40,561 bases of DNA, taken from positions 1 to 40,561 of the forward strand of contig VBLU01000006.1 of NCBI GenBank assembly GCA_005879065.1. Direction: 5' to 3'. A program made the position numbers and the translations under genes. The stretch is from Methanobacteriota archaeon (GTDB lineage Archaea > Thermoplasmatota > Thermoplasmata > RBG-16-68-12). Under the pieces are notes generated by a model, which saw only the letters and a list, made by a program, of their open reading frames with translations, had not been told where the DNA came from and searched no databases. This document shows positions 36,786 to 40,561 of the stretch, piece by piece; the first letter of the stretch is position 1, and each line of letters opens with the position of its first letter.

Positions 36786-37706
36786 ATGCCGCACATCGTG
36801 ATCATCGGGGACCGTGATTCCGGAAAGACCACTTTCCTCGCGCTCCTATACGCGGCCCAGGTGAAATCCGGTGCCACCCGGGCGGATGATTTTCGATTTC
36901 ACGTGGACCTCGCATCGATGGAAGAAATCTCCGAGGTTTTTCAACAATTGATGTCAGGGAGTTTCCCGGATTCCGCCGCGAAGGAAGGAATCAGTGACAT
37001 CAATTTCCATGTGGGCTATCGGAGGTCCAGGCTCGGGATCCTGTCGCGACGGCGGTCGAAGGCCTGGAGCCCGGATACCTCCGCCTCGTTGCACTTCGTT
37101 CTCCTGAGGAATCTGGACGCCGAGATGTCTCGATTTCGCAGCGGCAGTTCCCTCGCGAACGTGAACCTGAGGGACGTGCTCGAGAGCGATGCGATGGTCA
37201 TCTTGGTGGACAGCACAAGGCTGGCCGTCGTCGGCGAAGAGAATCCGCACGGAACGATGAGCAACTACGACGGAGCTGTGGAATCGCTCTTGACGGCCTT
37301 GCAGAGGTCGCGAGCGCGTGGCGACCCGAAGCGCTTCCATCCGATCTTCCTCTTCTCCAAGTTTGACTCCGTCAACAAGAAAGCGCTCCGAAGGGCGAAG
37401 ATCGAAGACGTGCCACCGGGCGTGCGAGAGACGACCCTGAGAGCGGCCTACGCCCGCGCGCTCCTAGACACGAATCTGCCAAAGACAATTGCGAAGATCA
37501 CTAACCGTGAGGTTCAAGGAGTGCGATTCGCCCCACCCTCGTACTTCTTCAGTCGAGTGGCGACCGAAGCCGCGACGGAGAATCTGAGGGACCGGGTTCG
37601 GCTCCTTCGCGGCGATGACGGCGGCTGGGAACTCGACTATTCTGCAGACGAATACCTCGCCCTGCTCGAGCGCCTGCGGACGATCGCCACCGAGGCGGGA
37701 GACTGA
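36786..37706 (+). CDS. P-loop GTPase-like protein A (degenerate G3 motif)
   Basis: MPHIVIIGDRDSGKTTFLALLYAAQVKSG (Walker A); SKFD G4-like; G3 position reads NLDAEM rather than DxxG. Paralogous to the next gene. Confidence 0.75.
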   Translation: MPHIVIIGDRDSGKTTFLALLYAAQVKSGATRADDFRFHVDLASMEEISEVFQQLMSGSFPDSAAKEGISDINFHVGYRRSRLGILSRRRSKAWSPDTSASLHFVLLRNLDAEMSRFRSGSSLANVNLRDVLESDAMVILVDSTRLAVVGEENPHGTMSNYDGAVESLLTALQRSRARGDPKRFHPIFLFSKFDSVNKKALRRAKIEDVPPGVRETTLRAAYARALLDTNLPKTIAKITNREVQGVRFAPPSYFFSRVATEAATENLRDRVRLLRGDDGGWELDYSADEYLALLERLRTIATEAGD

Positions 37707-37789
37707 GCCGTCCCTCCAGGCCCGGTGCTTCCCGCGGGTGATAACGTTGTGATTAGGATTAAGTACGGTTGGGGGGTGATGCACAGAAC

Positions 37790-38797
37790 ATGCCCTGCGC
37801 ACTACTCGGCGACCGCGCCTCAGGGAAGACGACCTTCCTGGGATTGCTCTATTCTGCCCAGGTCAAGTACGGTACCGGCGTGCAGGATGACTTCCGATTC
37901 CACGCGCCGATCGGATCCTTGAACCTGATGTCAGCGGTGTACGAAGGAATGAAGGATGGTCGGTTCCCTAGCGCGACGCTGAAGGAGGAAATCACCGAGC
38001 TCGGTTTCATCTTCGGCTATCTTCGCAAGGTGGTCGGCAAACTGCCCTACTACATCCGGCAACAGAACTGGGCGCGCCCGTTCTCCACCCTCCGATTTTC
38101 CGCCTATGATGTGTCGGGCGAAGATATTGAAGAGTTCATCGAGACCGGGATCGCCTCGAGGCCGTTGATCCAACAGCTTCTGAAGAGCGTCGTCGTCGTG
38201 GTCTTGGTCGACTGCAGCAAGATGACGACCGACATCGACACGCCGGCATACAAGAAAATGCTGCGATACGACAGCACCGTCGCGAAGTTGCTCGTCGCCT
38301 TCCAGACGTACAAGAGGCAGGAGTATGACCGGCTAAAGGATTCGGGGGTCAAGGCCGACGCGCCGAGAATCTACCCCGCCTTTGTCCTCTCCAAGTTCGA
38401 CACCCTCAAGGACGACGTTCTCGCTCGATTGGGCCTCCATCGCGGATTCCCCGAGAACAAGCGCGCACGAAAGGACTACGCAGAGGCCTTGCTCCGAGTC
38501 TTCGTCCCGCAAACCCTGTCCCAGATCCGTGGCGGCAAGATTGCCGGCGTCAGCATGGACAAGGCCGCGTACTTCCTGAGCTGGGTCCGAACGGAACAAC
38601 ACGAGGGCATGGAACCCGTCGGGCAATCGAAGATCGTCCGGACCGGGTTTGCACCGGAAGGCGGCGGCGAGCCCGATTTCTCGTACGACGAGTACGTCGA
38701 GTTCATTGAGCACTTCCGAGACATCGCCCACAAGATTCCCGACGAGGTCCTCGAGGCGGAGAAGTTCCAGGCCCAAGCCCTGGCTCGGGCAGCGTAG
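37790..38797 (+). CDS. P-loop GTPase-like protein B (canonical G3 motif)
   Basis: MPCALLGDRASGKTTFLGLLYSAQVKYG; G3 YDVSG; G4-like SKFD. ATG at 37790 aligned with paralog A. Confidence 0.75.
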   Translation: MPCALLGDRASGKTTFLGLLYSAQVKYGTGVQDDFRFHAPIGSLNLMSAVYEGMKDGRFPSATLKEEITELGFIFGYLRKVVGKLPYYIRQQNWARPFSTLRFSAYDVSGEDIEEFIETGIASRPLIQQLLKSVVVVVLVDCSKMTTDIDTPAYKKMLRYDSTVAKLLVAFQTYKRQEYDRLKDSGVKADAPRIYPAFVLSKFDTLKDDVLARLGLHRGFPENKRARKDYAEALLRVFVPQTLSQIRGGKIAGVSMDKAAYFLSWVRTEQHEGMEPVGQSKIVRTGFAPEGGGEPDFSYDEYVEFIEHFRDIAHKIPDEVLEAEKFQAQALARAA

Positions 38798-38808
38798 CGG
38801 GCGACACC

Positions 38809-39669
38809 ATGGGAACCGCGGAATCCCGGCACGGATCCACGGACAGAACGTTCGTGGAGTTCGACCACTGGCTCTACGGGGCGGTGTCCGGGACCGGGTA
38901 CACGACGAAAGCCGTCTCGAAGGGTCTCGACGCGGGCTTGTATGACCAATACCTTCGCGGGCACTACACGCCGATCCGCGCGGCCACCGCGCAATCGTAC
39001 GAGGACCCGATCGATCTGCACATGATCCACCCCGTCCACGGCGGGCGCGAAATCCTCCTGTCCCGGATTACCCGAGGGCCGGCCGATGAGGCGGGGAGGC
39101 CCACGTTCGCGAATCACACGATCGTCGGGCGCACGGAGCCGCTCCGGTCGGGGCTCATCACGCTCGACTCGGTCTTCCGCGCCATGGGCGAGTTCGATCG
39201 AAAGGCGCCCGACGTGATGGGAGAGATGCCGCCCCTCGAAATCCCCACGCGTTCGGAAGAGGAACGTGAAGCCCCCTTCGGCCTCGGGATCCATCGGCAC
39301 GTCACGTTCCCCGCCCTCGAGACGCTCGCGACCCGCATCATGGCCGATGCGACGAGCCGCACCCTCCTCCTGTGCCGAAACACGACGCCCGAGGCGCGCA
39401 ACGCCACCCTGCACCTCGTCTTCGAACTCCTGTGCTGGGGATGCGGACTTCCGATCCTCACGGCCATCAGCGAAACTCCACGGTCCTCCGCGATGAACTT
39501 CTTCAACTTGGTCGTCGCACCGCGGGGCGTCCGCGCCGATTCGAGCTGGGCCATCCTAGAAAGTGCCCTCGCCGAGCCCGTGTTGCCGCGCGTCATGGAC
39601 CGGGACGACGTGTACCAAAAGCTGACCACGATCGTGCGTCAGGCGCCCGGTTTGCCCTTGGCCCGATAG
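38809..39669 (+). CDS. GAP1-N-like GTPase-associated protein
   Basis: FVEFDHWLYGAVSGTGYTTKAVSKGLD...GGREILLSRITRGPADEAGRPTFANHTIVG resembles GAP1 N-terminal domains; starts 12 nt after the GTPase B stop codon. Confidence 0.6.
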   Translation: MGTAESRHGSTDRTFVEFDHWLYGAVSGTGYTTKAVSKGLDAGLYDQYLRGHYTPIRAATAQSYEDPIDLHMIHPVHGGREILLSRITRGPADEAGRPTFANHTIVGRTEPLRSGLITLDSVFRAMGEFDRKAPDVMGEMPPLEIPTRSEEEREAPFGLGIHRHVTFPALETLATRIMADATSRTLLLCRNTTPEARNATLHLVFELLCWGCGLPILTAISETPRSSAMNFFNLVVAPRGVRADSSWAILESALAEPVLPRVMDRDDVYQKLTTIVRQAPGLPLAR

Positions 39670-40561
39670 GTCGCGACTCCGCCGGTTCCTTTCTCGCGGA
39701 CGACGGTCCAACCGTGGCCGACGTCCCATTCGCCTTCTCGGCCCTCGAGATCCTGATCGAGGTGATCGAGTTCCGCTTCCAGGTACGCGCCGTCCGTCTC
39801 CACGTCGGGCACGAGGCTCCCTTTGGACAGGAGCTCGCACAGGAGCACGAGGCTGCTCGGCCTCCCTTTCCAATGGACGCCGAGGAAGGCTTTCCGCGCG
39901 GCGGCATCCGTCAAAATGAGTTCCCGCAGAGAGAGGTACGATTCGCGGTCGCGGGCATTCTCGCGCGGCGGCGGGTCCAGCCTCCCCTTGCGTTTCGCGA
40001 GATCTCGGAGAAGGAGGGCCCAGTCCTTTTTCGTGATCCCCTCCCGCTCCCACGGGGACGTCGGATCCGCGTCCACATTCGCCGCGTCGGCATTCGTCGA
40101 TTTCCGGGAGGAGCGAGCGCTGGCCTGAACGAGATCGTACGTGGCCCCGTCCTCCTGGTTCCTGGCCGGCACGATGCGGATCGACAACGCGCTCATGCCG
40201 AGGTGGAAGCGAGGATCGATGACAGTGAGGAGGTTCGCCGTCTCCTGAGGGAAGAGCTCCGTCAGGGTGATGTTCACCTCGGTCGTGCCGTTGCGTCGGG
40301 CCAGGGCGCTCAGCCCCTCGAGCGGGAGCGAACCGTCACCGTCTCGGGGGCCGTTGGCCAAGTCGTCGAGATAGGCTTGCGCGACCTGTTGGGTGAAACG
40401 CGGGCGCTTAGAGCCCAGGGAAAACTGGACCGCCTTCGCCATCATCCTCGAGCCGCGAAAGAGGCCCGTGACCCCGGCACGGAGGAAGGCCATGGTCCCG
40501 GCCGCGTCCACACATTGACCGATGAGGCCCGCCAACCGGATGGAGAGCTTTCGACTCAGCC
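39639..40561 (-). CDS. Uncharacterised protein, 5' end outside window
   Basis: Open frame through the window edge (upstream codons LSRKLSIR in frame); 298+ aa of normal composition; 31-nt convergent overlap with the GAP1-like gene. Confidence 0.6.
   Translation of the reverse strand, partial: LSRKLSIRLAGLIGQCVDAAGTMAFLRAGVTGLFRGSRMMAKAVQFSLGSKRPRFTQQVAQAYLDDLANGPRDGDGSLPLEGLSALARRNGTTEVNITLTELFPQETANLLTVIDPRFHLGMSALSIRIVPARNQEDGATYDLVQASARSSRKSTNADAANVDADPTSPWEREGITKKDWALLLRDLAKRKGRLDPPPRENARDRESYLSLRELILTDAAARKAFLGVHWKGRPSSLVLLCELLSKGSLVPDVETDGAYLEAELDHLDQDLEGREGEWDVGHGWTVVREKGTGGVATYRAKGKPGA

Follow-up and report, generated by a model that had tools for sequence, protein, structure and literature searches.

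Does a compact set of four genes at the end of an archaeal contig, preliminarily described as a conflict or signalling module of two GTPases and a GAP1-like protein, act as a weapon or as a switch? The window analysed here is one entire contig of 40,561 nucleotides (G000:C172:1-40561) from an archaeal metagenome-assembled genome (MAG) of 1.84 Mb and 75% completeness. A check of the open reading frames placed all four genes where they had been reported: the DO-GTPase-like genes A (36786..37706, plus strand, 306 aa) and B (37790..38797, plus strand, 335 aa), the GAP1-N2-like gene GAP (38809..39669, plus strand, 286 aa), and a fourth gene on the minus strand, C1 (39639..40561, stop at 39639), which is cut by the contig end such that the 3' two thirds remain. 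A TTG exists upstream of B at 37769, and the alignment begins at the ATG at 37790. GAP lies directly downstream of B, an order shared by nearly all loci; the spacing is short as described but measures 11 nt, not 12 nt. The convergent stop ends of GAP and C1 overlap by 31 nt (39639..39669), as had been noted, and the overlap has exactly this length in every locus spanning the junction in f1, the window's own family, and in f5. Elsewhere in the window, two adjoining P-loop ATPase genes on the minus strand (window:28230-30508) appear KaiC-like by eye, with GTGKT motifs.

The family lead of the preliminary description, DO-GTPases accompanied by GAP1, is supported, though weakly. In a profile search against DO-GTPase2 (PF19993, cut-off 27 bits), A scored 29.7 bits and B 23.0 bits, the latter below the cut-off; at E ≤ 1 the profile matches 19/22 A/B members. 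Two DO-GTPase-like paralogues in one locus are also found in 38% of known DO-GTPase2 systems. The anticipated GAP1-N match is present, with GAP scoring 19.7 bits (E 9e-4) against GAP1-N2 (PF20013) in a match that covers 121 of 139 profile positions (17-137); as this lies below the curated cut-off of 24 bits, we use the name GAP1-N2-like and refrain from assigning the protein to the family. Its N-terminal domain, at about residues 15-146, is followed in the alignment by ~140 more conserved residues, and neither GAP1-M nor GAP1-C finds a match in the 286 aa, so that the three-domain N, M, C layout is absent and the original wording of a pared-down archaeal version is a fair one. Few other archaeal GAP proteins are matched by PF20013 (1/15 further aligned members; 2/26 in a second set, best E 0.0049), and a search of 60 genomes of the class with this profile found nothing because the archaeal proteins lie below the reach of the model. 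The family link of GAP combines a weak match with a gene context, DO-GTPase then GAP1, that is described by Kaur et al. (2020; PMC7159879); weak as it is, it is probably right.

A and B share more than a family profile. The P-loops (GDRDSGKTT in A, 36807..36833, intact in the window genome; GDRASGKTT in B, 37808..37834; both plus strand) and the FRFH and SKFD motifs are common to both, as first reported; the loss of the Walker B motif in A had been missed. At 38108..38122 (plus strand), B carries the Walker B/switch II sequence DVSGE, including the conserved glutamate given as a family hallmark in PMC7159879, and the counterpart in A is the degenerate RNLDA (37107..37121, plus strand). In an alignment of 80 A/B proteins, DxxGE is present in 42/42 B and 0/38 A proteins, while the [ST]KxD motif is retained by nearly all A proteins; the P-loop lysine of A is kept in 15/16 members of f1 and in 0/19 of f15. 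The term GTPase pair therefore needs correcting: B has intact catalytic motifs, and A is by motif a pseudo-GTPase. The coding genes of the module are under purifying selection (dN/dS 0.014-0.30), with values of about 0.07-0.30 for A and 0.014-0.09 for B, and because A is still under such selection we read it as a functional pseudo-GTPase and not as a decaying copy.

The pairing appears to be old. In the tree, the A proteins of f1 and f15 group together in a single clade (support 100/98), and the A/B pair is therefore older than the split between these two families. The degenerate partners of f24 and f28 fall outside this clade (AU p 0.006 for all three, 0.003 and 0.02 separately, in a test that was chosen after the first tree and in which the f24/f28 rows are long branches). 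Their failure to join the A clade suggests that GTPase/pseudo-GTPase pairs arose more than once.

The fourth gene was called uncharacterised, and it is: C1 has no match in Pfam, NCBIfam, PADLOC or PHROGs, and its structural model (pLDDT 64) finds no PDB match with E ≤ 0.001. Judged from its sequence, C1 represents a new protein family linked to the GTPase module; its full-length relatives measure about 445-465 aa. In f1 the protein begins with a short hydrophobic N-terminus that passes the hydropathy threshold in some members only; some variants elsewhere carry transmembrane (TM) and extracellular parts, a few of them PKD. C1 and A both evolve fast. At one further locus (L084:7504-10917), two C1 genes stand in tandem; in one of them, a signal-like N-terminus and a TM segment accompany an N-terminal part that has no Pfam match.

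How far the unit recurs was followed in 300 genomes of the class. GAP is found in 44 of these genomes and C1 in 38, and 37 have both (Fisher p 4e-39, kinship ignored); the sole C1 genome that has no GAP, G167, has just part of a C1 gene, situated at the edge of a contig, and the GAPs of the 7 genomes that have no C1 are divergent. A neighbourhood map gives the order A-B-GAP with convergent C1 in f1, and B-GAP with convergent C1 on one f5 contig that is cut upstream. In f15 the order is SPFH-B-GAP-A, C1 lying on the other side of A and mostly convergent to it; a second f15 locus type has a C1 bearing PKD and several TM segments. The flotillin-like SPFH protein, distinguished from C1 by profiles, has an N-terminal TM segment and adjoins B in 12 f15 loci. 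Presence is patchy: neither the 94%-complete G199, of the window's genus, nor the 100%-complete G009 of f15 has the module, and copy number reaches two or three in some f15 genomes. The co-occurrence of A, B and GAP that the preliminary description anticipated in relatives is thus borne out in f1 and f15, with convergent C1 in addition. The layout is more than chance, given that two archaeal families repeat the order and the overlap, that 37 genomes contain both GAP and C1, and that the genes are under purifying selection.

Three further loci were noted. On a 2.2-kb contig of a MAG labelled Deltaproteobacteria (L040:1-2252), f1-type A, B and GAP are found; we do not read this contig as a transfer, and it is probably misbinned. 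In f28 (L073:4387-7467), a HEAT/Arm-repeat protein kinase stands beside GAP-B-A, with a Cas12f/TnpB-like gene on the opposite side. At L070:2474-4342, directly after the B gene, GAP is fused behind a HerA-like ATPase domain.

Descent was gauged against RpoB. Across 22 genomes, the distances of B and GAP correlate with those of RpoB at r 0.96 and 0.95, within f1/f5 at 0.63 and 0.62, and within f15 at 0.87 and 0.91. Because both genes track RpoB, the descent of the module is mostly vertical, with apparent losses. B evolves about as slowly as RpoB (window vs G060, 0.057 for B and 0.046 for RpoB; window vs G090, 0.104 and 0.116), although it diverges more in some close pairs (window vs G183, 0.084 vs 0.027). 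Among the scanned IMG/VR virus contigs neither A/B nor C1 has a relative, and a plasmid search found no relatives of B; plasmid matches to the B protein of the f15 locus L068 were rejected as chance-level P-loop matches. The neighbours are mostly metabolic enzymes that differ by clade, with a few isolated PADLOC-type hits. One locus, L032, in which A is 49% and B 98% identical to the window, had suggested exchange of A alleles between strains. We rejected this, since the sequence changes within B (L032:4188-4388) from resembling L079 to resembling the window and a sister contig in the same MAG, L048, has the window-like upstream part; L032 is likely a chimeric metagenome contig.

A fuller version of the locus is found in f15 (L068:2-19901, genome G244). 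Along with B, it encodes a vWA protein, a PP2C phosphatase and a Ser/Thr kinase. Its GAP is joined to an AAA/RuvB-like ATPase, A lies on the opposite strand, and a cNMP-binding and a zinc-ribbon protein are also encoded. The C1 of this locus forms a fusion with a class III cyclase and DUF835. The locus thus shows the kinase-PP2C-vWA theme, which PMC7159879 reports as restricted to actinobacteria. The gene set of L068 suggests a signalling system whose core is the four-gene form of the window.

The fold of GAP was queried by Foldseek with a model of pLDDT 64, whose best PDB match is the type VI secretion protein TagF (9t0n, E 4e-4, TM 0.37); weak longin-type hits (E 0.085-0.3) appear amid much PAS/LOV noise. 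A 61-residue approximate TagF consensus served solely as a search probe for retrieval, and the profile comparison itself was made on ten TagF sequences from the database. The homology proposed between GAP and TagF finds no significant support in sequence (HHalign E 0.16-0.25, probability <0.4%), and that between B and TssM was rejected because HHalign aligns the two out of register. The relation of GAP to TagF stays a lead.

Taken together, we infer, with a probability of about one half, that the module is a vertically inherited, membrane-linked GTPase/pseudo-GTPase signalling switch. In such a switch, B would be the working GTPase, and A, its degenerate and probably non-catalytic paralogue, would form a heterodimer with B and set its nucleotide cycle or carry specificity. 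GAP, encoded right behind B, would probably sense the state of the A-B pair as its adaptor or regulator. C1 would probably link the complex with the membrane or with an input, a role proposed from its hydrophobic N-terminus in f1 and the TM and extracellular parts of some variants; in other variants, the flotillin-like SPFH protein beside B may provide the membrane link. Consistent with this model are the conserved order and 31-nt overlap, the presence of GAP in 37/38 genomes with C1, the DxxGE asymmetry, selection on A, the shared clade of A in f1 and f15, the RpoB-like descent, the SPFH neighbour, the TM/PKD parts or hydrophobic N-termini of C1, and L068. Against it count the patchy presence and the shortness of the hydrophobic segment of C1 in f1, and the fast evolution of A and C1 could also fit recognition of a changing partner.

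That fast evolution, together with the patchy presence and the multiple copies per genome in part of f15, is what a conflict or defence system might leave, in which A, B and GAP would impose a threshold, detect an invader and set an effector free, with C1 as the sensor or effector; the relation to the families named in PMC7159879 points the same way. We nevertheless regard this reading as unlikely, and the conflict label of the preliminary description is not supported. The same four genes are found everywhere, with no variable effector gene among them, no FNIII family occurs among the neighbours and partners listed (at least 25 neighbour families), and the mostly housekeeping surroundings hold scattered PADLOC hits only. 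The absence of viral and plasmid relatives in the searches above, the mostly vertical descent and a B as slow as RpoB also speak against it.

The TagF match of the GAP model raises the idea of a phospho-signalling switch akin to the threonine-phosphorylation module of type VI secretion, with a TagF-like GAP, B in the place of the NTPase TssM, and a kinase, PP2C and vWA protein that were kept in L068 and lost elsewhere. The gene order of the Tistrella secretion locus, tssM-tagF-PP2C-kinase-vWA, does resemble the kinase-PP2C-vWA-GTPase-GAP set of L068, but the GAP model is modest, the profile comparison of GAP with TagF (E 0.16-0.21) stays in the range of unrelated controls, and the B/TssM match is out of register, which leaves this idea distinctly improbable. 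Mixtures of active and inactive GTPases are known from septins, and A and B could co-polymerise or oligomerise on membrane microdomains, in a septin- or dynamin-like manner, with SPFH or C1 as a scaffold. The flotillin-like neighbour in f15 would suit such an assembly; dynamin and septin profiles find no match and a stalk-like extension is absent, and we hold it to be very improbable. A bolder extension of the signalling switch, which we consider improbable, is that an asymmetric heterodimer is held at the membrane by the flotillin-like protein or C1 and read by a TagF-/longin-like regulator, that GAP1, TagF and perhaps the eukaryotic longin-DENN regulators are one ancient fold, and that the active/inactive GTPase pair evolved repeatedly.

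Among known systems, the GAP1-N2-type DO-GTPase systems, as PMC7159879 presents them, share with the module the placement of a GAP1-like gene directly behind a GTPase gene, the frequent presence of two GTPase paralogues, links to the membrane and, in L068, the kinase-PP2C-vWA theme. Unlike them, the window type has no GAP1-M/C, GTPase zinc ribbons, FNIII protein or variable effectors, and the archaeal module adds C1 (and SPFH in f15) and has one degenerate GTPase; the searched passages of PMC7159879 do not mention an inactive GTPase. DO-GTPase-GAP1 loci were defined computationally as conflict systems, and no experiment on such loci is reported in the papers found. TagF (DUF2094) is alike in the weak fold match and the L068-like gene set, and unlike in that sequence similarity is not significant and no secretion genes were seen near the archaeal module. 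The SPFH partner of f15 is hit by two profiles, the flotillin model of NCBIfam at E 1.6e-10 and Band_7 at E 1.3e-3, both below curated cut-offs, and is absent beside the module in f1. The Rag heterodimer with its longin-DENN regulators FLCN-FNIP or Lst4-Lst7 offers a works-like analogy, an asymmetric GTPase pair with a dedicated membrane regulator, to which the weak longin-type hits of the GAP model correspond; the likeness to the module is by analogy alone. Both Rag proteins are GTPases, and A, unlike them, lost its motif.

New here are the active/degenerate GTPase pair, a B that evolves at a rate like that of RpoB, the unmatched C1, and the kinase, PP2C, vWA, cyclase and AAA extras of L068. 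An effector-free, mostly vertically inherited core in which an RpoB-slow GTPase is joined by a motif-less twin would separate a core switch from weapons, and makes the biochemistry of that switch testable.
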